A model generated the notes under the pieces. That model ran no database searches and was not told the origin of the DNA. It was given only the letters and a program-made list of their open reading frames with translations. A stretch of 33,349 bases of DNA from a virus: positions 1 through 33,349 of the IMG/VR virus record IMGVR_UViG_3300023179_000315; one strand, given 5' to 3'. Every line of letters starts with the position of its first letter. The first letter of the stretch is position 1. The translations under genes were made by a program, and so were the position numbers. This document shows, one piece after another, positions 8,448 through 32,791 of the stretch.

Positions 8448-8709
8448 GGTTAACGCTAGAGCTAAGCTTAAGCTCAAAGAGCTAGGCGAGTTTCAAGACG
8501 TACTCAAGAAGGCTTTTGACCAGTTCTTGTGGGCTCAAGACTTTACATCCTTTCCTCAAATACAGGATTGGTGCGGTAAGGTTCTAGATATAATTGAAGA
8601 GGTTGAGTATCAAGTCAGTAATGAATTCGATTATGTCGATTCAAGACTTACTGATTATGACTTTGAACTAGCTCAGTTTGAGGCTGAAAACGAAGTAGAG
8701 GTTGATTAG
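8425..8709 (+). CDS. Hypothetical acidic helical protein (94 aa)
   Basis: Basic first 20 residues, then an acidic helical domain with DQFLWAQDF and a Glu/Asp-rich C-terminus. Start uncertain: ATG at 8425 chosen, with ATG 8416 and GTG 8413 as alternatives; none has a Shine-Dalgarno. Its last 62 nt overlap the 3' end of the convergent GIY-YIG endonuclease gene, so both C-termini are encoded on the same DNA. Confidence 0.6.
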   Translation: MTKDTNSKVNARAKLKLKELGEFQDVLKKAFDQFLWAQDFTSFPQIQDWCGKVLDIIEEVEYQVSNEFDYVDSRLTDYDFELAQFEAENEVEVD

Positions 8710-9502
8710 CAGCTAATTTAGCCTCTCTGTTTCTTCTTCGAGTTTCTTGTCTCTTTTGAATATGTTCTGGAGTTAATTTTTTACCTTTATTAGCTAAAGC
8801 TATTTTTTGAATATGTTCAGGGCTTCTATTTCTGGCTGCTAAACATATTTTGGCTTTGTGTTCAGGGCTTCTATTTTTTGCTGCCAATGACATTTTTGCT
8901 TTAGTTTCAGAGCCTAGCTTTTTACCTTTATGAGCTAAAGATATTTTTAATTTAGTTTCCGGGGTTAGTTTTTTACCTAAACTAGCTAAAGACATTTTTT
9001 GAATTTGCTCAGGACTTAATTTTTTACCTTTTCCGGTTGTACCTCTAAGCATTTTAGTTTCTAACATTTTTTTAATTGATTCAGGATTTTTAGGAGGCAT
9101 TTTTCTACCTTTAGTAGTTGTTCCCCAAAGTCTTTTAGTCTCCTGCCGTTTTTTTATGGTTTCAGAGCTCATTTTTCTGCCCATTCTTGATAATGACATT
9201 TTTTTTCTAGCTTCTTCAGAAAATCTACCACAACTTCCACCACCCTCTTTTAAATTGTAATTAGTTTTTAATTCAATAAATTCAGGAGTTACTAAACATT
9301 TTTCAAAGAAGTTTAAAGCTGCTTCATTTTTAGCATATAAAAGAATTTCTTTTTTAAAATTCTTAACTCCATACTTTTTAATAGCACTTCTTATAGCTAC
9401 TCCACCACCCATATAACCGTCATTAACATTCTCTGTAATATGCTGACCTATATAGTTTTTACCATTAATTAAATTAGTAATTTCATAGATAAGATAATAC
9501 AT
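8648..9502 (-). CDS. GIY-YIG homing endonuclease with NUMOD3-type repeats (284 aa)
   Basis: The N-terminal GIY-YIG domain starts YYLIYEITNLINGKNYIGQ (Tyr-Leu-Ile-Tyr and Tyr-Ile-Gly), followed by a catalytic-type Arg and a Glu near residue 68 (FFEKCL). From about residue 95 on there are seven or more short basic repeats of the form G-(K/R)-K-x-(S/T)-P-E-x-x-x-K, the NUMOD3 DNA-binding module of phage Seg-like nucleases. It is free-standing rather than in a visible intron, flanked by unrelated phage genes. A late-type GATAAATA box sits 6 nt upstream of the ATG. The gene is a mobile element by type; its target is not evident. Confidence 0.9.
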   Translation of the reverse strand: MYYLIYEITNLINGKNYIGQHITENVNDGYMGGGVAIRSAIKKYGVKNFKKEILLYAKNEAALNFFEKCLVTPEFIELKTNYNLKEGGGSCGRFSEEARKKMSLSRMGRKMSSETIKKRQETKRLWGTTTKGRKMPPKNPESIKKMLETKMLRGTTGKGKKLSPEQIQKMSLASLGKKLTPETKLKISLAHKGKKLGSETKAKMSLAAKNRSPEHKAKICLAARNRSPEHIQKIALANKGKKLTPEHIQKRQETRRRNREAKLAANQPLLRFQPQTELVQSHNQ

Positions 9503-10391: not shown

Positions 10392-13300
10392 ATGGCACTT
10401 ACATATCTTGATCCAGAAATGATTGATTACCGCGGCAAAGGCGGTGTCGGTACAACAGCACTCGGAACAAACGCACTCGCAAGTATTGCTTCAAGCGGTT
10501 TATCTAATACCGCTTTAGGTTCAAATGCATTAAGTGGGCTAACTACTGGTGATCAAAACGTAGCCATTGGTCCTAATACATTAAGTAGACTTACAGATCA
10601 AAGTTATAATATTGCCATTGGTTCTGATGCTTTAAAAAATTCTACAGCAGCTGATAGCAACTTAGCTATTGGCTATCAGTCATTAGTAAATAATACTGTT
10701 GGAGATTCTAATACAGGATTAGGTAGAAGTACTTTATATTCTAATACTTCAGGATCTGCTAATATAGCTATTGGTAGAGAATCTTTATATTATAATTTAA
10801 CTGGTAGTTATAACGTAGGCGTTGGTTATCAATCACTTAGAGCTAATATAAAAGGATTTTATAATGTTGCTGTTGGTACTCAAACACTTTATAACAATAC
10901 AATGGGGGACGGAAATGTAGCTATCGGTCATAGTACTCTTTTTAGCAACACAACCGGTATCAACAACGTTGCTGTTGGTACACAAGCTCTTTATTATAAT
11001 ACTAAAGGTAATTTTAATACAGGTGTAGGTCAACGAGCACTTTTTCAAAATGTTGCCGGTATTTTAAATACAGCTCTTGGTTATGGTACGCTCTACTATA
11101 ACACATCAGGTAGTTTTAACACCGGTGTCGGTAGTCAAGCTTTACAACTTAATACAACAGGCTACGATAACGTAGGTGTTGGTTATTTGCCACTCTATAG
11201 CAATACAGAAGGTTATCGTAACGTTGGTATAGGTAATTTGTCACTTCGCTACAATACAACGGGTGCTAGTAATGTAGCTGTTGGTTATACTGCTTTACTT
11301 AATAATACTAGCGGTAATGGTAACGTGGCAGTTGGTTATGAATCACTTTATGGTAGTGGAACTTCAACAGCATATGAAAACGTAGCTGTTGGTTATAGAG
11401 CTCTTAGAAATACTACAACCGGGGATAACAACGTAGCTGTTGGTTACGAATCCTTAAGTGCTAACTCTACCGGTTCAAATAATATTGCTATCGGTCGTAG
11501 AGCTGGTGCTCTTAATACCACAGCTACTGATAACGTCGCTATCGGTACAAATGCTTTAGCTAACGGTCCTTCTTCATCTTATAACGTCGCTATTGGTACT
11601 GAAGCCCTTTATAACTCAGGTGCAGCTGATAGTAACCTAGCTATCGGTTATAGAGCCTTGAGTGCTAATACAACTGGTGACGCTAATACAGCCTTAGGTC
11701 GGGAAGCACTTATTAAAAATACCACAGGTTCTGGTAACGTAGCTATTGGTCGCAACACACTTTATAGCAACCTAACCGGTGTTAACAATACTGCAACAGG
11801 TATTGGTTCTCTTTCAAGTAATAAATCTGGTGATCGTAATATCGGTGTCGGTGCTTTTGCCTTAGAAAAGAATATATCTGGTACAAGTAACGTCGCTATG
11901 GGCTGCTTTGCCCTTGGTGCTTCAACTGCAGGTGACAACAACGTCGCTGTTGGTTGTGGATCAATGCGTAGTGCTACAACAGCATATGAAAACGTTGCTG
12001 TTGGCTACAATGCTTTATTTAACGTTTCAATAGGTGACAACAACGTAGCTGTCGGTTATCAAGCTCTTTCAGCTAATACAACAGGTTCTAACAACATAAG
12101 TATCGGTCGTAGAGCTGGTGCTCTTAATACCACAGCTACTGATAACGTCGCTATCGGTACAAATGCTTTAGCTAATGGTCCTTCTTCTTCAGCTAACATC
12201 GCTATTGGTACTGAAGCTCTTTATAATTCTAAGACGGCTGATAGTAACCTAGCTATCGGTTATAGAGCCTTGAGTGCTAATATAATTGGGGATTTTAATA
12301 CAGCCTTAGGTCGGGAAGCACTTATTAAAAATATTGCAGGTTCATATAATGTAGCTGCTGGTAAACAATCTTTATACAGTAATACATCAGGTAGTAGTAA
12401 CGTTGCTTTAGGTTATCAAACCTTATATGGTAATACATCTGGTAGTGCAAACATAGCCCTCGGTACATATGCGCTTAGTAGTAATACAGTAGGAAATCAA
12501 AACCAAGCTATCGGACAAAATGCTCTTGCTCGGAATACTGAAGGTATTCAAAATATAGCTATTGGTGGAAGTGCTCTTTATAATAATACTAACGGTGATT
12601 ATAATATTGCTATAGGCCCTAACACTCTTGTCGCTAACGTTACAGGTTCGTATATTGTAGCCATTGGTAGTCAATCACTTTATAACAATACAGCAGGTAT
12701 TAATAACGTAGGTGTTGGTACCAACACTCTTAGAGCTAATAATGTCGGTTCATATAATACTGCTTTAGGTAGTAACACTCTTATCAGTAATACTAGCGGT
12801 TCATTTAATACTGGTGTTGGTTACTTTGCACTTTATTATAATACATCGGGTTTTGATAACGTAGGTGTTGGTAGTCAATCACTTTTCGCAAATACTGAAG
12901 GTTATCAAAACGTTGGTATCGGTAACTATACACTTCGTCAAAACACAATAGGTAGCAATAATACAGCCCTTGGTTATAATGCACTCCGTAGTAACACTAC
13001 TGGTAATGGTAACGTAGGTCTCGGTAATAACGCACTTTATTCAGGATCAACAGCATTTGAAAACGTAGCTGTTGGCTTTAATGCTCTTTATACTAACTCT
13101 CAGGGCGATAACAACGTAGCTGTTGGTTACGAAGCTTTAAGTGCTAACTCTACCGGTTCAGGTAATATTGCCATCGGTCGTAGAGCAGCTGCTAAAAGTA
13201 CTACTTCAAGTAACAACATCGCTATTGGTAATAGTGCTATGGCAGGTGTTAACGTTACTTCAGACTACAACGTCGCTATTGGTACTGAAGCCCTTTATAA

Positions 13301-13940
13301 CTCAGGTACAGCTGATAGTAACCTAGCTATTGGTTATAGAGCCTTGAGTGCTAATACAACCGGTGACGCTAATACAGCCTTAGGCCGTCAAACATTAGCT
13401 CTTAACTTATCTGGCTCAAATAACGTTGCTATTGGTAGACAGGCACTTAATAATACAAATGCAGGTAATAATACAGCATTAGGTTATAGTGCTGGTTCTA
13501 CACTTACAATTGGTACAAATTGTACGTTAATTGGTTATAATGCTCAAGCTTCAAGTGCAGTAGTTTCAAATGAAATTACACTTGGTAATAGTTCAGTAAC
13601 AACTCTACGTTGCAACACACAAACAATTCTGACCCTATCAGATGCAAGAGATAAAAAGGATATTGAAACTATTACAGTTGGTATTGACTTCGTTAATGCA
13701 TTAAAACCGGTTAAGTTTACTTGGAATCAAAGAGATGGAGGTAGAGTTAATATACCTGATACAGGATTTATTGCTCAAGACTTACAACAAGCATCTACAG
13801 ACTTTAACTGTGAATACATTGGTCTTGTGGATAGTTCAAACCCCGATAGACTTGAAGCATCAGCTGGTAAATTAATACCAGTACTTGTTAAAGCAATTCA
13901 AGAACTTTCAGCAAAAGTTAAAGAACTGGAAAACAAATAA
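10392..13940 (+). CDS. Long tail-fibre protein: 17-residue beta-roll repeats plus S74 chaperone (1182 aa)
   Basis: From about residue 20 to 1065 the protein is about 60 copies of a 17-residue unit, N-(V/I)-A-(I/V)-G-x-x-(A/S)-L-x-x-N-(T/S)-(T/S)-G-x-x. This resembles the left-handed beta-roll of trimeric YadA/Hia-type head domains, so a long rigid trimeric shaft is expected. The last 100 residues start Ser1083-Asp-Ala-Arg and form a peptidase S74 intramolecular chaperone, which in related fibres cleaves itself after trimerisation at a conserved Ser-Asp. The C-terminus is a coiled coil. No signal peptide. A late-type box immediately precedes the gene. Almost certainly a receptor-binding or side fibre. 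Confidence 0.9.
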   Translation: MALTYLDPEMIDYRGKGGVGTTALGTNALASIASSGLSNTALGSNALSGLTTGDQNVAIGPNTLSRLTDQSYNIAIGSDALKNSTAADSNLAIGYQSLVNNTVGDSNTGLGRSTLYSNTSGSANIAIGRESLYYNLTGSYNVGVGYQSLRANIKGFYNVAVGTQTLYNNTMGDGNVAIGHSTLFSNTTGINNVAVGTQALYYNTKGNFNTGVGQRALFQNVAGILNTALGYGTLYYNTSGSFNTGVGSQALQLNTTGYDNVGVGYLPLYSNTEGYRNVGIGNLSLRYNTTGASNVAVGYTALLNNTSGNGNVAVGYESLYGSGTSTAYENVAVGYRALRNTTTGDNNVAVGYESLSANSTGSNNIAIGRRAGALNTTATDNVAIGTNALANGPSSSYNVAIGTEALYNSGAADSNLAIGYRALSANTTGDANTALGREALIKNTTGSGNVAIGRNTLYSNLTGVNNTATGIGSLSSNKSGDRNIGVGAFALEKNISGTSNVAMGCFALGASTAGDNNVAVGCGSMRSATTAYENVAVGYNALFNVSIGDNNVAVGYQALSANTTGSNNISIGRRAGALNTTATDNVAIGTNALANGPSSSANIAIGTEALYNSKTADSNLAIGYRALSANIIGDFNTALGREALIKNIAGSYNVAAGKQSLYSNTSGSSNVALGYQTLYGNTSGSANIALGTYALSSNTVGNQNQAIGQNALARNTEGIQNIAIGGSALYNNTNGDYNIAIGPNTLVANVTGSYIVAIGSQSLYNNTAGINNVGVGTNTLRANNVGSYNTALGSNTLISNTSGSFNTGVGYFALYYNTSGFDNVGVGSQSLFANTEGYQNVGIGNYTLRQNTIGSNNTALGYNALRSNTTGNGNVGLGNNALYSGSTAFENVAVGFNALYTNSQGDNNVAVGYEALSANSTGSGNIAIGRRAAAKSTTSSNNIAIGNSAMAGVNVTSDYNVAIGTEALYNSGTADSNLAIGYRALSANTTGDANTALGRQTLALNLSGSNNVAIGRQALNNTNAGNNTALGYSAGSTLTIGTNCTLIGYNAQASSAVVSNEITLGNSSVTTLRCNTQTILTLSDARDKKDIETITVGIDFVNALKPVKFTWNQRDGGRVNIPDTGFIAQDLQQASTDFNCEYIGLVDSSNPDRLEASAGKLIPVLVKAIQELSAKVKELENK
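10449..13587 (+). repeat. Coding tandem repeat, 51-nt period (about 60 units)
   Basis: Degenerate 51-nt units encode the 17-residue beta-roll motif. A 75-nt block at 11489-11563 recurs exactly at 12101-12175, an offset of 612 nt or exactly 12 units, and similarity extends about 100 nt further. A third related block occurs near 13269. Expansion by in-register recombination is the likely cause. Confidence 0.85.
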
Positions 13941-14044: not shown

Positions 14045-16690
14045 ATGGGCTACGAGTATATAAGACAGCCACAAATATTTACTAGACCGATTTCCGCTCT
14101 TGGTGGTATACATCCTTATGTAACATACCCTCAATACCGTACTGCATTTACTTCGTGGAACACTACAACAACTACAAATACCACAGTATTTAGTATACCG
14201 GGAACTTTTCCTATTCTTGAAAAATCAGAATCTTTTATTGTAAATGTCAGCGGTGTTGTACAAGCACCAAACAAATATACAGTTAATAGAGATTTTAGAA
14301 CAATTACTTTTACACAAGCTATACCTGCAAGTACACTTGTTAGTTTTACTCAAATTGGTACCATAGCCTTAGATACTGCTACATACGTATCTTTAACATC
14401 CCAAGAAATTATTGTTAATGCTAATAGCGCGACAGATGCCGTAAAAATTACACAAAAAGGTACTGGTAATGCTTTAAGAATTGAAGATTCAACCTCAGAT
14501 ACAACACCATTTATTATTACAAATAATGGTAATGTAGGTATTGGAACTATTACTCCAACACAAAAATTACATGTAAACGGGTCAATTGCTCTACAAGGTA
14601 CAACAAACACCTTATTAATAAATTATTTAGGAACACAAACAATTTTAAGCCCAGATGCGAGCGATTGGGGTACATCTCTTCGCTTGGCAGGATCGTCAGA
14701 TACTTATCCAAATACAGCAGCTTTATACGTAAATGGTAATATAGCATTATACTCTGATAATAATAGAGATATAGGCATTGGTACTGCTAATCCAGTTGCT
14801 AAACTTCATGTTTCTCAAAGTAGTACAGACCCTGCTATTAAAATTACTCAAAGTGGAACCGGTCACGCCTTGCTTGTGGAAGATACAGGTTCAGTCGATG
14901 CAACACCGTTTGTTATTAATACTGATGGTAAAGTAGGTATTGGAACAACCACACCAGCAGCGGGATTACATTTAGCAGGTACAGCTTTAAATGATAACGG
15001 TATTATACAAGATGCTACAAGTACATACTCCCCTTACATAATACAAAAGTTCCCTAGTAGTATACGATCTACAAATACCAATATAACAATTTACGATCAA
15101 GGTAATGAAAATTTAGTACTTACTAAACCTTCTCATAGTATTGTTTTTAATAAAACAACTACAGACCCTGCTTATTATTATTGGGTATCTACAAACACTT
15201 CTCCGACAGCAGAATTTGTATTAGCTGGTACAAATAATTTATTTAATGAGTCTGAGGCTTATGTTGTAACAGTTGGCGGTTTACTACAACCCGCAGATTC
15301 TTATACTGTTAATCCTACTAAACGAAGAATAACTTTTGTTGATGCTGTTTCTGCAGAAGAGGTTTATGTTTTTCAAACCGTTCGTTCATTACTTTCTGGA
15401 ACCTATGCAAACGTTACCCTCAATCAATGGATAACATCTAGTCGTGCAGCAACTTCATCTTTTTATCTTACCGGTAGTATCGGTCTTTCAAGTACACCTG
15501 AACAATATGTTGTAGGTGTTGGTGGTGTTTTACAGCTACCAACAGAATATAGTATTAACACTATTAACCGAACAATTAACTTTACATCAAGTGTTCCACC
15601 TAGTACTGTTGTTACAGTTTCATTTTTACCTTCTGCAGTATCAACAACAAGTGATGCTGATATACAGTTTTTATCAACCTTTAAGTCATGGACAACATCT
15701 AGCTATCAACCAATTACAGTTTTACCACTTACAGGTACTATACCTTTATTAGGTGAAGAAGCAGGATTTATTGTTAATGTAGGTGGTGTACTACAAACAC
15801 CAAACACATATTCTGTAGATCGTGTTTATAGAACTATTACTTTTTCTTCACCTATTCCTAGAAATGCACCGGTAGGTGTTACTCAATTAGCTGCTCCGTA
15901 TTTCCCTATTGTGTACAGTACACAATTTAATGTCGCAACCGGCGGTACTTCAACAGCAGCCGCCCGCGCCATGCTATTCTTGGATGGTAAATATGAAGGT
16001 AGAGTTGGTATTAAAACTACAACACCAAGAGCTACACTAGACCTTGGCCCAACAACTGGTAATAAATTAGCACTTTGGAGTGATGCAGACGGTCAATATG
16101 GTCTTGGAATAAATAGTTTACTACTTCAAATATATTCTTACTGGGGAAGAGGATTAAGTGGTGAAATAGCATTTGGTATTGGAGATAATATTACTTTTAA
16201 CGAGTTAGCACGTATAAAGAGTTTGTCAGGGGTTGGTCATTTAGGTATTGGTACTTCTTCTCCTGTTCATCAACTTCAGCTTAGTAAAGATTCAGCAGCT
16301 AAACCTTCTACTAGTACATGGGCTATAGCTTCAGATGAAAGAATTAAAGAAAATATAATATTAGCTGATAATGATAGATGTTATGAAATTGTTAAAACAT
16401 TACCATTAAAACGCTATACTTGGAAATCTGATGTATATACCCCTGCTCAAGTACCTGATAGATCAAAACTAGGTTGGATTGCTCAAGACGTACAAGCAGT
16501 ATTTCCTAAAGGTGTTGCTGTTTCTCCTTTATGTTCAAATAATATAGTAATTGAAGATTGTTTAACTTTAAATACTGATCAAATATATGCTTCAATGTAC
16601 GGTGCCTTACAGCAATTAATAACTGTAGTAGAAACACAATCTCAAACAATATCAGCTCTTGAAACAAGAATACAAATTCTTGAAAGTTAA
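14045..16690 (+). CDS. Second tail-fibre protein with S74 chaperone domain (881 aa)
   Basis: Modular beta-rich fibre. Four copies of a module of about 45 residues contain G-(V/L)-(V/L)-Q-x-P-x-x-Y-(T/S)-(V/I), then R-x-I-x-F; they fall near residues 58-110, 395-450, 475-530 and 565-620. At least three segments of the type VGIG(T)-T-P-x-x-x-L-H-(V/L) lie between them, a motif frequent in phage fibre shafts. The last 119 residues begin Ser763-Asp-Glu-Arg-Ile-Lys, an S74 autocleaving chaperone, with a C-terminal coiled coil. A full-length S74 domain directly after another S74 fibre suggests two different trimeric fibres, or a shaft and tip pair. Confidence 0.88.
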   Translation: MGYEYIRQPQIFTRPISALGGIHPYVTYPQYRTAFTSWNTTTTTNTTVFSIPGTFPILEKSESFIVNVSGVVQAPNKYTVNRDFRTITFTQAIPASTLVSFTQIGTIALDTATYVSLTSQEIIVNANSATDAVKITQKGTGNALRIEDSTSDTTPFIITNNGNVGIGTITPTQKLHVNGSIALQGTTNTLLINYLGTQTILSPDASDWGTSLRLAGSSDTYPNTAALYVNGNIALYSDNNRDIGIGTANPVAKLHVSQSSTDPAIKITQSGTGHALLVEDTGSVDATPFVINTDGKVGIGTTTPAAGLHLAGTALNDNGIIQDATSTYSPYIIQKFPSSIRSTNTNITIYDQGNENLVLTKPSHSIVFNKTTTDPAYYYWVSTNTSPTAEFVLAGTNNLFNESEAYVVTVGGLLQPADSYTVNPTKRRITFVDAVSAEEVYVFQTVRSLLSGTYANVTLNQWITSSRAATSSFYLTGSIGLSSTPEQYVVGVGGVLQLPTEYSINTINRTINFTSSVPPSTVVTVSFLPSAVSTTSDADIQFLSTFKSWTTSSYQPITVLPLTGTIPLLGEEAGFIVNVGGVLQTPNTYSVDRVYRTITFSSPIPRNAPVGVTQLAAPYFPIVYSTQFNVATGGTSTAAARAMLFLDGKYEGRVGIKTTTPRATLDLGPTTGNKLALWSDADGQYGLGINSLLLQIYSYWGRGLSGEIAFGIGDNITFNELARIKSLSGVGHLGIGTSSPVHQLQLSKDSAAKPSTSTWAIASDERIKENIILADNDRCYEIVKTLPLKRYTWKSDVYTPAQVPDRSKLGWIAQDVQAVFPKGVAVSPLCSNNIVIEDCLTLNTDQIYASMYGALQQLITVVETQSQTISALETRIQILES

Positions 16691-16727: not shown

Positions 16728-17453
16728 ATGTCTAAATGTGTAGTAATTTTTTCAGGTGGTGCTGATAGTACTGTTATTCTTCATTACTGTCTTTCAAAGT
16801 TTGATGAGGTTTATTGTTTAACCTACAACTATAACCAACGTCATAAAATCGAAATTGATAGAGCACTGAATTATACAACCGATCTTGGTGTCGGTCCTGA
16901 TCACAAAATTAAACAGCATACTGTTGTGGACTTGACATTTTATGCCCAGCTTGCTGATTCTTCAGCTCTTACTAATCCTGATATTGAAGTACCAAATATG
17001 AAGGATGTTATCGGGCACCCCCAGAATGCTGCACACGTTCCTAATCGTAATATGACAATGCTTTCAATTGCAGCTGCTTATGCTGAATCTAGAGGTGCTA
17101 CAGATGTTTATTATGGTGCAGCTCAAATTGACGACATAAGCGGACACTGGGATGGGACAGTTGAGTTCTTAAACTTAATGAACACAACTTTATCTCTAAA
17201 CCGGAAGCACAAGATCCGAATTAGTGCACCTCTTATGGTTAAGTCCAAAGCTGAAATCTTTAAATGGGGTATTGAATTAGGGGTAGACTTTTCTAAAACT
17301 CATACCTGTTACAAAGGAGAAGAAGTAGCTGACGGAGTCTGTCCCGCATGTGCTAGTCGTATTCAAGGGTTTATAGGTGCTAAATTAATAGATCCAATAC
17401 CATATGCTATTGATATTGACTGGAACAAGTATAACTGTAAGCCTATAATTTAA
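16728..17453 (+). CDS. queC: 7-cyano-7-deazaguanine synthase-like protein (QueC)
   Basis: QueC converts 7-carboxy-7-deazaguanine to preQ0 with ATP and ammonia, through an amide intermediate. The PP-loop SGGADST is at residues 9-15, followed by YNQRHK, SALTNPDIEVP, HVPNRNMTMLS and the C-terminal zinc segment. In usual QueC that segment reads C-x8-C-x2-C-x2-C; here it has Cys194, Asp202, Cys205 and Cys208, so one ligand is Asp. Length (241 aa) is normal. In phages QueC belongs to pathways that place 7-deazaguanines in DNA to block restriction. The next gene is a class II glutaminase, the partner domain fused to QueC in Gat-QueC proteins. QueD, QueE, FolE and DpdA are not in this window. Confidence 0.9.
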   Translation: MSKCVVIFSGGADSTVILHYCLSKFDEVYCLTYNYNQRHKIEIDRALNYTTDLGVGPDHKIKQHTVVDLTFYAQLADSSALTNPDIEVPNMKDVIGHPQNAAHVPNRNMTMLSIAAAYAESRGATDVYYGAAQIDDISGHWDGTVEFLNLMNTTLSLNRKHKIRISAPLMVKSKAEIFKWGIELGVDFSKTHTCYKGEEVADGVCPACASRIQGFIGAKLIDPIPYAIDIDWNKYNCKPII

Positions 17454-17455
17454 GG

Positions 17456-18100
17456 ATGTGTGCGATAAGTGGCTCGAGCAGCTTGGATAAAGCTCATGAA
17501 CTCTACAAGCTAGGTCTTGATAGAGGTTATCAGTCTTCAGGCTTCTTAGGTGTTACTAAGAACAATTTTGTCTGCCTTAAACAGAAGGAAGTATTTGAAT
17601 TAGATTACCTTAAAAAGGAATTAAAAGAGACTGAAGAGTTTCCTATCTATTGTTTGTTTCATTCCCGGGCTCCTACTAACACGACTCAGCAGGACTTCTC
17701 ACCTAAGACTACTCATCCTTTCTCTTACAAGCATTGGTTTGTTGGGCATAATGGCATCATTCAGAACTTTCATGAACTAAATTCATATGCTACTTGTATG
17801 GCTTTTAATACAGATTCTGCTATGATACCTTATCATCTATGCTGGACTGATGGCAACTTTAAACAGGTATATGAAAAGTATAAAGGTTTATTAACTTCCT
17901 GGATCTATAATTCTTTAATGTCAGAAATTTTTTTAGTTAAGGCTGGTTCATCTCTTCATATGAACGAAGATAGTTTTTGTTCTGTTACTTTTGAAGGCTC
18001 TTCTTCAGTTGATAAAGACGGAATTGTTTATAAATTTAATGGAATGGGATTTGAGGAGTATCAGACCTTTGAATATAACAACCCTTATTTTATTTTATGA
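17456..18100 (+). CDS. Stand-alone class II glutamine amidotransferase (Gat-like, 214 aa)
   Basis: Ntn-type glutaminase with the nucleophile Cys2 directly after Met (MCAISG), plus HSRAPT (69-74), GHNG (97-100) and NTDS (118-121), all as in the GlmS/PurF glutaminase half. No synthase domain follows, so it must pass ammonia to a partner. It starts 2 nt after queC. In some phages and Crenarchaeota this domain is fused to QueC (Gat-QueC), linked there to archaeosine-type 7-amidino/amido-deazaguanines. Here the two are separate genes in reverse order. Ammonia delivery to QueC or to a modified base is the likely role, inferred from context. Confidence 0.85.
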   Translation: MCAISGSSSLDKAHELYKLGLDRGYQSSGFLGVTKNNFVCLKQKEVFELDYLKKELKETEEFPIYCLFHSRAPTNTTQQDFSPKTTHPFSYKHWFVGHNGIIQNFHELNSYATCMAFNTDSAMIPYHLCWTDGNFKQVYEKYKGLLTSWIYNSLMSEIFLVKAGSSLHMNEDSFCSVTFEGSSSVDKDGIVYKFNGMGFEEYQTFEYNNPYFIL

Positions 18101-18825
18101 AACAAGTATTACTCGTAACAGCAACTAAGACCAAAACTCTAGAGGAATTTCAGCAAAGGCCTCTCGCTAAATCGTTACAGATACTTACAGATATTCGATA
18201 CCCGGATGATGCACTTTTTGATTTTGAAATTGTAAAAGATAATTCTTCTGGCCTACCAGAAGTCTATAATCGTTATTTGATTGAAAAGAATAAAAATAAA
18301 ATCATTCTTTTTGTTCATGATGACTTAGAAATTCATGATCTTAATCTTGTTGAAAAGCTTAATGAATCACCTTGGGATATTACTGGTCTTGCTGGTAGCG
18401 GTCAGTTTCAAATTCAAGATAAGAATCTCTGGCATATCTGTGCACCTCGTGAATCATTCTCAGGATCTGTAACTCATCCATTAGCGATACAAGAAGGTAA
18501 TCAGATTAAAGTGGATAACTCTAAAAAGCTTTCAACACTATTTGGTCCTTGGCCACAGCGCTGTCTTATTTTAGATGGTCTATTCATAGCTGTTAATGTA
18601 GAAAGGGCTTTAGAGTCGGGATGGCGCTTTGATGAACGACATAAATTTCATCATTATGATATTGCTTCTTGTTTATCTGCAAATGAAAAGAAACTTAAAA
18701 TGGGTACCTGGCCTATTTTCGTAGTACATTATGGTTTGGGTAATTCATATTTGACACCTGAGTGGGAAGAGTCTAATAAAATTTTTAAAGAGAGTTGGCA
18801 AAATGCCTTGAAGAAGTCTGAATAG
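18097..18825 (+). CDS. StrF-like glycosyltransferase (242 aa)
   Basis: GT-A-like layout. FVHDDLEI at residues 72-79 holds the Asp-Asp expected to bind the metal and sugar nucleotide; then a LDGLFIAV strand near 160 and HHYDIASC near 182-190, the pattern of the family named for streptomycin protein StrF. It overlaps the gat gene by 4 nt, so it is probably co-expressed with the 7-deazaguanine genes and could glycosylate a modified base. Capsule or LPS modification is the alternative. The acceptor cannot be read from sequence. Confidence 0.7.
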   Translation: MKQVLLVTATKTKTLEEFQQRPLAKSLQILTDIRYPDDALFDFEIVKDNSSGLPEVYNRYLIEKNKNKIILFVHDDLEIHDLNLVEKLNESPWDITGLAGSGQFQIQDKNLWHICAPRESFSGSVTHPLAIQEGNQIKVDNSKKLSTLFGPWPQRCLILDGLFIAVNVERALESGWRFDERHKFHHYDIASCLSANEKKLKMGTWPIFVVHYGLGNSYLTPEWEESNKIFKESWQNALKKSE

Positions 18826-18835
18826 CTTTTATACT
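18808..18835 (+). promoter_or_regulatory. Sigma70-like promoter
   Basis: TTGAAG, 16-nt spacer, TATACT; the ATG at 18845 follows 9 nt after the -10. Its -35 overlaps the end of the glycosyltransferase gene. Lacks the AAGTTCC element. Confidence 0.45.
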
Positions 18836-18844
18836 TTACACACT

Positions 18845-19435
18845 ATGATTATTAATAGAGAACAACTAAAAGAAGTAACAGGCTGTGACTACTATGATGG
18901 TTCAGCTTTACATTGTAGACAAGCTTATAAATTTTTTAAAAAGGATGTTAACCCTTTAGGTAATATTATTTCTTTTGTATCACCAATGACTGTAGAAGGA
19001 GATAATCTTATTGACTTGGAAGATTCGCTCAATAAAGACTATATCTATTCCGATATGGCTATGAACTTTATTATGGAGATTCCTAATCAGAAGATTTGGG
19101 GCGGGGTATTATTTCAGCGTTTGCTCAATGCTCAGGTTGGTTCTTTGCTCTGTACAAAATATTTGCAAACTGAAGGATATGTTGATGGTGATGATATTAT
19201 GGTTAAGTGGGGAGATGAGCATAAGAAAGCTTCTGTCTCAATTGCAGCTGAGAAGAATGGAGCCGTTTTAATACATCTTGGTATCAACATTGATGCTGGC
19301 GATAAAGCGCCTGAGTTTGCTTTTTCAACTAAACTTAATGATGACCAAGCTCGTAACTTTATGGCAGATGTTGAAGGCATCTTCTATTCTATCTTATCAG
19401 ATGTCTTTATTGCCACGACTAAGATCATTGTTTAA
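18845..19435 (+). CDS. DUF366-family protein, possible 7-deazaguanine enzyme (196 aa)
   Basis: Matches my memory of archaeal DUF366 (PF04017) proteins: YDGS (17-20) near the N-terminus, GNIISFVSPM, NLIDLED (54-60), a SDMAMNFIMEI segment and later a SIAAEKNGAVLIHLGINID block, in the same order and spacing and at about the usual length of 190. I recall DUF366 members in phages being proposed as a carboxy-deazaguanine decarboxylase (DpdL); that link is from memory and should be checked. The position three genes after queC agrees with a deazaguanine role. Its stop overlaps the next start as TAATG. Confidence 0.65.
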   Translation: MIINREQLKEVTGCDYYDGSALHCRQAYKFFKKDVNPLGNIISFVSPMTVEGDNLIDLEDSLNKDYIYSDMAMNFIMEIPNQKIWGGVLFQRLLNAQVGSLLCTKYLQTEGYVDGDDIMVKWGDEHKKASVSIAAEKNGAVLIHLGINIDAGDKAPEFAFSTKLNDDQARNFMADVEGIFYSILSDVFIATTKIIV

Positions 19436-19782
19436 TGCTCTTTGAATACTTAAAGGATATATTTCTTCTTAAGAAGGGTAACTTACCCCTAGACGATTAT
19501 ATTCCGTTTCTTATTAATAGATGGATATCCTTTGTTGGTAACTCCGCTATTAGTATTAATGAGACTGTTAACCAATTAGGTAACATTGATAAGGCACAGC
19601 ATTATAAATTGCTCCTTAAATGCTTTCCTAAACAGAAGCGTCAGCCTTTTATCAAATACGTAAAGAAGGTCAAAGAAGAAAAAACTAAAGAAGATGATAA
19701 AATAACTCTTATGGCTTCCAATATGGAGATGTCCGAGAGAGAGGTGAAACAATTACTTGAACTTAGAGAACAATTTACTTAA
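19435..19782 (+). CDS. Clamp-loader A subunit, gp62-like (115 aa)
   Basis: Resembles the short phage clamp-loader A subunits (T4 gp62 type): LFEYLKDIFLLKKG, then DYIPFLINRWISF, then HYKLLLKCFPKQKRQPF and a lysine-rich linker, with a C-terminal EMSEREVKQLLEL helix. This is shorter than T4 gp62 (187 aa) but typical of reduced forms. It would join a gp44-like ATPase, not in this window, to load the sliding clamp. It directly follows the DUF366 gene and precedes a co-chaperonin, an order unlike T4's 45-44-62. Confidence 0.75.
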   Translation: MLFEYLKDIFLLKKGNLPLDDYIPFLINRWISFVGNSAISINETVNQLGNIDKAQHYKLLLKCFPKQKRQPFIKYVKKVKEEKTKEDDKITLMASNMEMSEREVKQLLELREQFT

Positions 19783-22976: not shown

Positions 22977-23402
22977 CTATTTAGGTTCTATCTGCTCTAG
23001 TTCTATACCGAACTCTTTAGCAATTGTCTTCATCGGGTAAGGTATATTTGACCTGTACTCGTTTCTATAGACTATCTTTTTAATACCGTAAGCTGCTAAG
23101 GATTTTAAGCAATCATTACAAGGAGAGTAAGTTACAGCAGCCATATAACATTCCCCAGGCTTAACATATCGAAGAGAATTCTGCTCAGCATGAATTACTC
23201 GAAGTATTTTTTCTTTTCTGTTATCCCAACAATTCATTTCTAAACCAGGAATTGCACCATTATAGCCAATCGAAGCTATAGTTTTGTCATGTCTAAAGAG
23301 TACACAACCTACTTTAGTTCTTGGGTCTTCAGATCTTTGTGCTGCTACTTCAGCCAACCTAAGACCGTATTCCTCAAATGATATTCTACTCCCAGGCTCC
23401 AT
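22977..23402 (-). CDS. dCMP deaminase (141 aa)
   Basis: Zinc-dependent cytidine/dCMP deaminase: His-Ala-Glu at 71-73 and Pro-Cys-Asn-Asp-Cys at 94-98 give the zinc ligands and proton shuttle. NGAIPG and the DPRTKVGC segment match the dCMP type. It makes dUMP, which the ThyX at 32156 can methylate. The start at 23402 is chosen for the GGAG upstream; an earlier ATG at 23429 would add nine residues that lie within the overlapping 51-aa membrane gene. Confidence 0.88.
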   Translation of the reverse strand: MEPGSRISFEEYGLRLAEVAAQRSEDPRTKVGCVLFRHDKTIASIGYNGAIPGLEMNCWDNRKEKILRVIHAEQNSLRYVKPGECYMAAVTYSPCNDCLKSLAAYGIKKIVYRNEYRSNIPYPMKTIAKEFGIELEQIEPK

Positions 23403-23541
23403 TTTCAGGTAGCTCCATATCCGGAACATTTAAAAGCTTTTCAATACTTTCTAATCGTATTTTAATCATACTCAAAGAGAGTGTAATAGCTAATAACAAC
23501 CCAACAACAGCAAATTTCCAAATAATCTCAAAGTTTTCCAT
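23386..23541 (-). CDS. Small single-pass membrane protein (51 aa)
   Basis: Begins MENFEIIWKF, then a hydrophobic span AVVGLLLAITLSLSMI (about residues 11-26), then a charged tail. It overlaps both neighbours (14 nt upstream, 17 nt into the deaminase), as a coupled gene would. Function unknown. Confidence 0.6.
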   Translation of the reverse strand: MENFEIIWKFAVVGLLLAITLSLSMIKIRLESIEKLLNVPDMELPENGAWE

Positions 23542-26855: not shown

Positions 26856-27129
26856 AATATATTTCCATAACATAAACTGTTTAAAGAACTTTCATGTTAT
26901 TCAGAAGTATAAAGATGCTTTATTAGCTTTATCAGAGCGGGAAATTACTTTACCGAAGAGTACCTTCAAGTGCTTAGAAACCGAACAAGAAATTATTAAT
27001 GCTCTCAATAGAGTTATAGACTATTATCTTGCAGAAGGATTGCTTGAAAAAGATCCAAACACTAATAAAATTAAACCACATTACTATGAACCGATCGCTG
27101 AACTACAAAGACATACACCTTATTCCTAA
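26827..27129 (+). CDS. Hypothetical basic protein (100 aa)
   Basis: Begins MTYKKIKNPKIYFHNINCLK; basic first part, helical second part with NALNRVIDYYLAEGLLEK. Start at 26827 (second of two tandem ATGs) is a guess. It overlaps both the preceding gene (29 nt) and the GMP reductase-like gene (44 nt). Confidence 0.55.
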   Translation: MTYKKIKNPKIYFHNINCLKNFHVIQKYKDALLALSEREITLPKSTFKCLETEQEIINALNRVIDYYLAEGLLEKDPNTNKIKPHYYEPIAELQRHTPYS

Positions 27130-28081
27130 TTATTCAGAGCTTAAATCTCGCTCTCAAGCTGATGTATTTGTTGATTTCGGTAAGCTTACATTTAAGCTTC
27201 CCATTGTGCCTGCCAATATGGCCTCGTGTATTAGTTATGAGAAGGCTACTTGGCTGGCAGGAAACGGCTACTTCTATATCATGCACAGGTTCTATGAGTA
27301 TGATGAGATCTTAAACTGGATGCGTAGAATGAATCGATGCAAAGATCTTCTTCCTTTTATCTCTATCTCCGTTGGTATTAAGAAGAGGGATGTCGAGATG
27401 ATCACTACTATAGCTCAGGAGAAGCTGAGATTAGACTTTGTCACCGTTGATGTAGCCCATGGTGATCATTCCGAGACTATTAATATGCTTCGTTATCTTA
27501 ATGAGTATAAGAAGCATTTTAATCCTGACCTGTTTATCATTGGAGGTAACATAGCTACATCAGATGCCTATCTTCGAATGCTACCTTATGTACAGGCTGT
27601 TAAGGTAGGTATTGCTTGTGGTGCTTCTTGTATTACATACAATAAGACAGGATTTGCTTCACCAATGTTCTCTACCGTACAAGATATAGCTAACACAAGA
27701 GATGAGATGGGTAGGTTTGATAATATTAAGAATCACCCTCTAGTTATTGCCGATGGAGGCATTTCTTGTAATGGAGATATTGCTAAGGCTCTGGTAGCAG
27801 GCGCTGATATGGTTATGGCTGGTTCTATGTTTGCCCGTTGTATTGATTCTCCGGCTATGGTTGACCCAACTGATCCTACTAAGAAGCTTTATTTTGGTTC
27901 TGCCTCTTCTATGAACGGTAATAAGAAGAATATTGAAGGACGGACTCTATCAATGCCTATGAACGGTATGACCTACGAGCAGAAGCTTAAAGAGGTTCAC
28001 CAAGATCTTACTTCAGCTATTTCTTATGCTGGAGGTTCTGACCTAACTGCCTTTAATAGTGTTGATTACAAACTATTATGA
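27086..28081 (+). CDS. GMP reductase / IMP dehydrogenase-family enzyme (331 aa)
   Basis: TIM-barrel of the IMPDH/GMPR family. It starts MNRSLNYKDIHLIPNYSELK, the family's substrate-loop beginning; then VPANMAS; a D-V-A-H-G strand; a catalytic-type Cys in GASCIT; ADGGIS with a GDIAKALVAGAD segment; and a late EGRTLSMPMNG. It lacks the CBS domains of most IMPDHs and has GMPR-like length. GMP reductase would turn GMP into IMP, shifting purine pools toward ATP. The usual GPGSICTT segment reads differently here (ACGASCIT), so substrate choice is uncertain. Confidence 0.8.
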   Translation: MNRSLNYKDIHLIPNYSELKSRSQADVFVDFGKLTFKLPIVPANMASCISYEKATWLAGNGYFYIMHRFYEYDEILNWMRRMNRCKDLLPFISISVGIKKRDVEMITTIAQEKLRLDFVTVDVAHGDHSETINMLRYLNEYKKHFNPDLFIIGGNIATSDAYLRMLPYVQAVKVGIACGASCITYNKTGFASPMFSTVQDIANTRDEMGRFDNIKNHPLVIADGGISCNGDIAKALVAGADMVMAGSMFARCIDSPAMVDPTDPTKKLYFGSASSMNGNKKNIEGRTLSMPMNGMTYEQKLKEVHQDLTSAISYAGGSDLTAFNSVDYKLL

Positions 28082-28593
28082 CAGAATATATTCATGAACC
28101 AACACTCACAAAAGAAAAAGCATTTTACGATCACAGAGGTGTTTTTGTTCCATTATCTTTAACATCTCATCTTACTTGGCTGCAATCCAACATTTCAGTC
28201 AACCCTAAGAGACTAACGCTTCGCGGGCTCCATTTCCAGCTTCCACCCTACGCACAGTCTAAACTTATTAAAGTTATTGACGGTAGTATTATTGACTTTG
28301 TTGTAGATATAAGAACTGATTCTCCAAACTACAAAGAACTTTATATCTACGATATGGAGCCGGGTGATGAATTATATGTCCCTAAAGGCTTTGCTCATGG
28401 GTTCATTACTATCAAAGATAATACAATAGTTCAGTATTTGGTTGATAACATTTACAAGCCAGAAGCAGAAGGTTCAATTGTCTGGACAAAGTTCTTACCT
28501 TTAATGCAAAAGTTTAATACAATTGTAGATTTTAACGTTCATGATATTATTATTAACGATAAGGATCTAGTGACAAAGAATTTTAATGACTAA
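28078..28593 (+). CDS. RmlC-like cupin, dTDP-4-dehydrorhamnose 3,5-epimerase family (171 aa)
   Basis: Cupin with LRGLHFQ near residues 48-54 (His52 in the catalytic position of RmlC), KLIKVIDGSI, VDIRTDSPNYKE and VPKGFAHGF, the ordered signature of the family. RmlC epimerises dTDP-4-keto-sugars; phage copies may modify surface polysaccharide or supply sugar for glycosylation. The glycosyltransferase at 18097 is a possible user. ATGA overlap with the enzyme upstream. Confidence 0.75.
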   Translation: MTEYIHEPTLTKEKAFYDHRGVFVPLSLTSHLTWLQSNISVNPKRLTLRGLHFQLPPYAQSKLIKVIDGSIIDFVVDIRTDSPNYKELYIYDMEPGDELYVPKGFAHGFITIKDNTIVQYLVDNIYKPEAEGSIVWTKFLPLMQKFNTIVDFNVHDIIINDKDLVTKNFND

Positions 28594-32155: not shown

Positions 32156-32791
32156 TTATTCTTTATCCAGACCAAAAGCTTCAATTGTGTACCTAAAAGG
32201 ATTACCTTTAATTTGTTTTACAAGATCTAACATCTGCTGAGCGATTTGTTGTATCTCAACCTGAGCATCTGGTTTGTTTCTAAGACTAAGGAAATGAGAA
32301 AAGGACCTCCAATTAAACATTACATCACAACTAATTTGCGAACTATACGTCTTAAAGAAGCGAGCTGATTCTTTTACTCTTTTTCTTGGAAGCTTGTAAG
32401 TATTTGTTAAGTCTTTTACGCATTTATGATACCAATTGTTACCCTCAATAACATAGTTTCTTAATTTTTCTTTCCAAGACTCTGGCCAATCTTCAGGAAT
32501 GTGAAATTTATCTTCTTGTAGTTCTTTATAACGAGCTGACTCGGCATTGACTGATACCCCTATTCTATGTTTGAGTATATGAATATGAGAAGCTATATCA
32601 GAATTAACAAGAAAGTGTAAAGATGATTTTTCAAACGGTGTATGATGCCCGTTATCAGCTAGCATTTTAAGTAATTGAGGTATTCTATTCTTTTTTTCTT
32701 CTGATAGTTCTCGAGATGTTGATGTCCAAGCTGAACAAGCATGGGTTTCATCTGAGCCATAATGACCTATAAGTTCTACAGTATTTTTCAT
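32156..32791 (-). CDS. thyX: FAD-dependent thymidylate synthase, ThyX (211 aa)
   Basis: Converts dUMP to dTMP using FAD, NADPH and methylene-tetrahydrofolate. The ThyX motif region is ILKHRIGVSVNAESARY (residues 72-88): the usual RHR appears as Lys74-His-Arg and the gap to the catalytic Ser (85) is one residue longer than RHRx7S, both worth a check. HHTPFEKSSLHF at 49-60 and the C-terminal FRYTIEAFG complete the family pattern. It probably works with the dCMP deaminase at 22977. Overlaps the upstream gene by 4 nt. Confidence 0.9.
   Translation of the reverse strand: MKNTVELIGHYGSDETHACSAWTSTSRELSEEKKNRIPQLLKMLADNGHHTPFEKSSLHFLVNSDIASHIHILKHRIGVSVNAESARYKELQEDKFHIPEDWPESWKEKLRNYVIEGNNWYHKCVKDLTNTYKLPRKRVKESARFFKTYSSQISCDVMFNWRSFSHFLSLRNKPDAQVEIQQIAQQMLDLVKQIKGNPFRYTIEAFGLDKE

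Follow-up and report, generated by a model that had tools for sequence, protein, structure and literature searches.

A queC block with a separate glutaminase, a glycosyltransferase and DUF366 in uncultured giant phages, and its proposed role in 7-deazaguanine DNA modification

7-Deazaguanine derivatives in phage DNA act as a shield against restriction enzymes; to our knowledge, the known derivatives bear small groups only. In the deoxyarchaeosine pathway of phage 9g, QueC is fused to a class II glutaminase domain in a single protein, Gat-QueC, also found in archaea, and is accompanied by QueD, QueE and a DpdA (PMC6884629). Vibrio phages KVP40 and nt-1 carry instead a stand-alone class II glutaminase gene directly after queC (ORF392 in nt-1). 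A related arrangement is described here for the IMG/VR record IMGVR_UViG_3300023179_000315, a linear sequence of 33,349 bases representing a fragment of a longer genome and indicated as the window throughout, where queC is followed by a separate glutaminase gene (gat), a glycosyltransferase gene (GT) and a member of the DUF366 family. Computational analysis established the genes and how well they are conserved, how they are coupled in relatives with DpdA3, QueD and QueE, the protein folds, the retained active sites and the linkage of DUF366 to queC in cells.

Conservation of the block and its coupling with DpdA3

All four genes listed in the initial annotation were found between positions 16728 and 19435 (Table 1), including the reported 4 nt overlap of gat and GT (ATGA at 18097-18100). 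Each of them is intact, and dN/dS values of 0.03-0.16 per gene indicate purifying selection. Searches of the window genes against IMG/VR relatives, performed by tblastn, revealed that the contigs of the window clade which span the block keep the order queC-gat-GT-DUF366-gp62, the last being a clamp-loader subunit-like gene. An IMG/VR scan anchored only on QueC produced 65 unique loci, 59 of them not cut by a contig edge. Both gat and GT lie within 4.2 kb of queC in all of these 59 loci; DUF366 is also present in 31 of them, six of which show a shuffled queC-GT-gat-DUF366 order. The contigs are related to each other, and counts across them are not independent; even so, since the block is kept after re-ordering, it is likely to be functional rather than an accident of inheritance. 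The four-gene block is not a chance or local accident, and occurs in a large family of uncultured giant phages.

The genes had been assigned to a 7-deazaguanine DNA-modification pathway, and the larger relatives bear this out. In contig G024 (126 kb) the block is accompanied by QueE, a DpdA3 homologue and QueD; in G056 (227 kb) it is located at 173.3-176.0 kb, with QueE, DpdA3 and QueD at 208-217 kb; G054 and G055, the latter with the block in shuffled order, contain DpdA3, and ORFs resembling QueE and QueD were read next to its gene. Relatives containing both the block and DpdA3 span 126-227 kb; in G024, G054 and G056, for which their spacing is known, about 26-40 kb separates the two. Overall, DpdA3 is found in 8 of the 11 QueC-anchored contigs of at least 100 kb, including all four of at least 190 kb, two of which look like duplicates. 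The functional cluster extends to genes, encoding QueD, QueE and DpdA3, which are located outside the window. The lack of a DpdA in the phage, indicated at the outset as an observation able to dismiss the pathway, fails for the family; in the window itself, a 33-kb fragment, none was seen.

Two further lineages add to this picture. In the second, found through DUF366, this gene is located beside gp62, and the contigs, as far as they extend, also encode FolE, QueD, QueE, QueF, QueC, a gat that overlaps GT, and DpdA3; in most contigs, DpdA3 is followed by a formyltransferase-like gene and then by a GMP-reductase-like gene. In the third, collected by a scan for phiST-type DpdA3, the final base of dpdA3 is also the first of GT in all 14 tabled contigs and in a fifteenth (L113), and in the same contigs a divergent DUF366 usually follows GT. 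Across the lineages, GT shows translational coupling with gat in two cases and with dpdA3 in one. The longest contig of the third lineage, G058 (217 kb), contains FolE, QueD and QueE, and neither QueC nor gat was found in it; a carboxy or decarboxy base would be expected in this queC-less sister lineage. As a separate observation, about 20 contigs encode, two genes ahead of phiST-type dpdA3, a protein of 110-125 aa which is perhaps QueD-like (T-fold; L183:9217-9588 and, in phiST, L167:16842-17186) and is a candidate carboxy-deazaguanine decarboxylase.

DpdA3 from the relatives shows 36-40% identity to CP220 and to the 'DNA guanine transglycosylase' of Flavobacterium immuto, while a second type is 39% identical to a phiST protein. 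A Pfam TGT search gave no match in 43 contigs; DpdA3 profiles, used in its place, proved effective for finding DpdA. As DpdA3 could not be connected by sequence profiles with TGT structures, nor usefully with the DpdA2 of nt-1, its identity rests on homology to the annotated phage enzymes. DpdA3 reportedly permits complete replacement of guanine. The block is very probably part of a DpdA3 DNA-modification system.

Features of the block proteins

Window QueC scores 172.3 bits against the TIGR00364 equivalog (cut-off 150.3) and 185 bits against the Pfam QueC model PF06508. Canonical members of the QueC cluster share the motifs SGGxDS, YxQxHxxE and VPxRN, together with the substrate motif YPDC (PMC13329287). 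The first three are present in the window protein as SGGADS, YNQRHKIE and VPNRN. In the four-cysteine zinc motif C194, C205 and C208 are kept; the remaining position, which is Cys in the 10 other clade members of the alignment, is Asp202.

The gat product matches GATase_6 with 27.4 bits (cut-off 27) and starts with Met-Cys2. Cys2, HSRAPT, Asn99-Gly100 and Asp120 are invariant in 13 homologues, while His98 of the HNG motif is Gln in several of them; the catalytic N-terminal Cys and the glutamine-binding residues place the protein among class II glutamine amidotransferases. Along its full length it matches phrog_12378, the family which also contains nt-1 ORF392. Vibrio phages of the KVP40 type have a related glutaminase after queC, annotated as 'hypothetical' in KVP40 and nt-1; homologues, mostly unannotated, are also present in pf16 and Vibrio phage 2.275.O, and a glutaminase of the same type follows queC in 14 DpdA3 loci with no GT near by. 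Since queC and gat are two separate genes, queC coming first, with no fusion, the pair does not belong to Gat-QueC proper. The glutaminase had correctly been described as split and reversed relative to Gat-QueC; the suggestion that this was undescribed does not hold, because a split glutaminase beside queC is not new and already occurs in phages of the KVP40/nt-1 type. Its position after queC, both in these phages and in the 14 DpdA3 loci, makes a two-gene equivalent of Gat-QueC the simplest reading, and gat quite likely feeds ammonia to QueC.

For GT, the match to Glyco_tranf_2_5 (PF13712) is just below the cut-off (26.7 bits against 27). An AlphaFold model (pLDDT 94) has a GT-A fold, with Majastridin, solved with UDP, as best structural match (Z 19.9), followed by many GT-A enzymes. 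HDD (74-76), D160, D188 and H211 are invariant in 34 homologues; the fold, a DxD-type metal site (HDD) and the conserved acidic D188 identify a GT-A enzyme. A nucleotide-sugar epimerase gene, inserted between gat and GT in G024 (L159:9781-10791), has a similar counterpart preceding DUF366 in L052 (L052:8250-9260), and both are possible sugar suppliers. Two GT matches (G055:C1:107358-108008 and G063:C1:140951-141628) were flagged for one in-frame TGA each; the adjoining open frames look intact, and the TGA may be due to a frame artefact, a sequencing error or recoding.

Window DUF366 matches PF04017 with 82.1 bits, against a Pfam gathering cut-off of 29.9. The best structure match of its AlphaFold model (pLDDT 90) is 2ddz (PH1223, Z 22.7), and the fold is shared with BirA-type biotin/lipoate ligases (Z 11-13, rmsd about 3 over 150-160 residues). 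The conserved residues G115-D116-D117 and K128xSVS resemble the ND and RKLAGIL elements of the BirA motif. This GDD..KxSVS motif is intact in 30 of 31 DUF366 sequences from queC loci, the other being unaligned, and in 48 further sequences with no queC in the fetched stretch, which belong mostly to the second lineage, in which queC is more distant. It is lost in all 11 sequences from queC-less phiST-type DpdA3 loci; these form one lineage, so that one or few loss events are represented.

The linkage with queC is not limited to phages. In cells, queC is directly upstream of DUF366 in 48 of the 63 loci found by DUF366 patterns alone. In a phylum sample, DUF366 occurs in 132 of 292 genomes, and adjoins queC in all 30 loci examined, which are the 30 best-scoring and mostly close relatives. 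Independent-looking queD-queC-DUF366-queE operons were found in Deltaproteobacteria, Clostridiales, Eisenbacteria and unclassified bacterial metagenome-assembled genomes, one of them with folE (families confirmed for locus L341); Methanosarcina acetivorans is among the genomes with DUF366. Taken together with the predicted fold, these data would make DUF366 a new element, i.e. a ligase-fold family linked to queC, with no biotin or lipoate role indicated; the chances that it acts in the QueC step are about even. The literature searched had nothing on PF04017/COG2029, and none of the DUF366 hits mentioned a link to QueC.

Two other roles for DUF366 were considered and discarded. A role as the CDG decarboxylase of Cellulophaga phages is not supported, since no DUF366 match was found in Cellulophaga records and the retention of the motif with queC, and its loss without it, speak against this function. 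Nor does DUF366 replace QueF, since 17 of 27 DUF366-positive genomes tested also have QueF above cut-off. A match in 'Microcystis phage MaAM05' (L031, GenBank MW495066) was rejected as phage evidence. This record reads as bacterial chromosome, with genes such as scpA, scpB, secDF, murJ, fliM and glyS, and its DUF366 protein begins almost exactly like the one of Vampirovibrio chlorellavorus (L395:5950-6534); it looks like a bacterial chromosome fragment mislabelled as phage.

A proposed pathway and its alternatives

The block would probably represent the QueC end of a phage pathway which swaps guanine in DNA for a 7-deazaguanine derivative and then decorates the base. We infer the acceptor, the sugar, the order of the steps and every reaction beyond those expected from QueC homology. 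In the proposed scheme, FolE of host or phage origin, followed by phage QueD and QueE, would provide 7-carboxy-7-deazaguanine, to be converted by QueC, given ammonia by the separate glutaminase, to the amide or nitrile or, as in Gat-QueC, to the amidine (archaeosine). DUF366 would act at this step or just after it, probably by handling an acyl-adenylate or by forming an amide. DpdA3 would exchange guanine in replicated DNA for the deazaguanine base, and GT would add a sugar, most likely on the exposed side chain at position 7. Amide- or decarboxy-type bases had been anticipated at the outset: the former fits QueC and gat, while the latter is less likely here, because the two point to nitrile, amide or amidine products. 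As to the sugar decoration also foreseen, the 1-nt overlap of dpdA3 and GT supports it, and the coupling of the genes tips the balance slightly towards glycosylation of the deazaguanine base in DNA by GT. A GT linked to DpdA3 and QueC would be a new element, implying glycosylated 7-deazaguanine in DNA, a class of hypermodified base of which we know no description.

A number of observations weigh against this pathway. No DpdA, QueD, QueE or FolE was seen in the window or in the contigs of its closest clade, all of them up to 68 kb in size, not every contig having been searched for every gene. Window QueC has HWDG where YPDC is expected, and is for this reason filed as a QueC-family enzyme rather than as a proven canonical preQ0 synthase. 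The departure is softened by the finding that [YFH]WDx is common in other phage QueCs, for example YWDC in nt-1; the HWDG variant may stop at the amide. None of 50,697 records of known phages matched GT, so that no described chemistry is attached to it. In contig G023 (210 kb), GT persists together with a degenerate DUF366, with QueC, gat, QueD, QueE, FolE and DpdA3 all undetectable. Finally, G058 has GT after DpdA3 and lacks QueC, so that there, at least, GT must act on something other than a QueC product.

Some of these data favor different explanations. The DNA could carry an amide, nitrile or amidine deazaguanine while GT, linked by position only, modifies a surface or a protein of the phage or host: glycans are the usual acceptors of GT-A enzymes of this type, the nearest fold neighbours are glycan and protein transferases, many queC-gat and DpdA3 phages have no GT near by, and G023 keeps GT without the pathway. 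We regard this as unlikely, since GT is coupled to gat or dpdA3 in three lineages, and stays with queC after re-ordering. The window phage might also have the block and have lost DpdA, or insert the base in another way, as the missing DpdA of the window and of the closest-clade fragments would suggest; the contigs in question are, however, no longer than 68 kb, and DpdA3 is about 26-40 kb away from the block in G024, G054 and G056, and such a loss appears improbable.

The glutaminase may be thought to serve the synthesis of an amino sugar for GT instead of QueC, since the glutaminase portion of glucosamine-6-phosphate synthase is among its best profile matches. No sugar-isomerase domain is present, however, and the occurrence of the same kind of glutaminase after queC in KVP40-type phages, and in DpdA3 loci with no GT near by, makes this very doubtful. 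Supplementation of queuosine or archaeosine in host tRNA, rather than modification of phage DNA, would agree with the presence of QueC and DUF366 in cellular preQ0 operons too, but is hardly credible given that long relatives encode DpdA3, kin of phage DNA transglycosylases, and that no TGT was found in the 43 contigs. Modification of phage DNA by the DpdA3 pathway remains preferred. Its full form, in which phages carry glycosylated 7-deazaguanine DNA through DpdA3 and a dedicated GT-A enzyme, and DUF366 is a ligase-fold enzyme of the QueC step in bacteria, archaea and phages, is put forward only tentatively.

Accessory genes and comparison with known systems

The gp62-like gene shares 1 nt with DUF366 and is its conserved neighbour, in a T4-type neighbourhood, in all lineages; it is probably outside the pathway. 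Genes for GIY-YIG-like homing endonucleases occur in the queC-gat-GT-DUF366 region of some relatives, and also at 8648-9502 of the window, L038:759-1469 and L053:1519-2259. A promoter scan near the block returned no more matches than expected by chance. In contigs of clade 2 (L173, L174, L175, L176, L179), a GMP-reductase-like gene, guaC, directly adjoins dpdA3 and a formyltransferase-like gene; guaC is also carried by the window clade and by G023 and, as a possible auxiliary, may serve to recycle the guanine set free in the exchange of bases. The rmlC-like gene, present in some clade members only, is a possible, weakly linked source of sugar. A thyX gene directly follows dpdA3 in G024, G054, G055 and G056. 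Of the two large tail-fibre genes, the one at 10392-13940 consists largely of short repeats.

Table 1. Location and main features of the genes of the block and of other window genes
Gene	Position	Strand	Size	Predicted product or function	Support
queC	16728..17453	+	241 aa	ATP-dependent formation of amide/nitrile from 7-carboxy-7-deazaguanine	TIGR00364, PF06508
gat	17456..18100	+	214 aa	separate class II (Ntn) glutaminase, predicted to supply QueC with ammonia	GATase_6, phrog_12378
GT	18097..18825	+	242 aa	GT-A fold glycosyltransferase	PF13712, model pLDDT 94
DUF366	18845..19435	+	196 aa	biotin/lipoate-protein-ligase fold, QueC-linked	PF04017, model pLDDT 90
gp62-like	19435..19782	+		clamp-loader subunit	phrog_225, E 1.6e-10
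guaC	27086..28081	+		GMP-reductase-like	GMP reductase model 286 bits, below cut-off 344
rmlC-like	28078..28593	+		sugar epimerase	PF00908 126 bits; overlaps guaC by 4 nt
dCMP-deaminase-like	22977-23429				
thyX	32156-32791			ThyX	
tail fibre	10392-13940			large tail-fibre gene	S74 chaperone domain near C-terminus
tail fibre	14045-16690			large tail-fibre gene	S74 chaperone domain near C-terminus

Compared with Gat-QueC systems, where the glutaminase comes first within one fused protein, the block is made up of two genes with queC first, GT and DUF366 are added, and the DpdA3 of the window relatives belongs to a different DpdA subfamily. KVP40 and nt-1 share the order of queC and glutaminase; in place of DpdA3, they have DpdA2 together with an ArcS-like protein (DUF5591 match). 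The phages with a homologous transglycosylase, Campylobacter CP220, Cellulophaga phiST and Flavobacterium immuto, all have QueD, and the last two also QueE and FolE. No DUF366 match was accepted in known phages, including those of the KVP40/nt-1 type and the DpdA3 phages, and no glycosylated-deazaguanine DNA was found in the literature searched.

PH1223 (2ddz) and the BirA/LplA superfamily share the fold of DUF366, whose lysine-bearing KxSVS strand corresponds approximately to RKLAGIL of BirA; DUF366 differs from BirA/LplA in its linkage to queC and in the lack of any indicated biotin or lipoate role. The family is uncharacterised, with a structure solved but unexplained: its linkage to queC and the loss of the motif in queC-less phages make its function directly testable, and its adjacency to queC in bacteria and archaea hints at a component so far overlooked in a well-known pathway.

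A modified, possibly sugar-carrying G probably shields the phage DNA. T4 glucosyltransferases have a GT-B fold and act on hydroxymethylcytosine, while the window enzyme has a GT-A fold and is tied to deazaguanine genes. The alpha- and beta-glucosyltransferases of T4 embody the same principle, the addition of sugar to a modified base by a phage enzyme (PMC13216743); if the proposed pathway is true, the GT coupled to DpdA3 would extend deazaguanine chemistry to sugars, providing a purine parallel to the glucosylated cytosine of T4. The comparison also bears on nt-1, whose DNA contains dPreQ0, dADG and dG+, credited by the authors to ArcS or to oxidation (PMC6884629): the glutaminase following queC offers an alternative source of dG+ and dADG in this phage.

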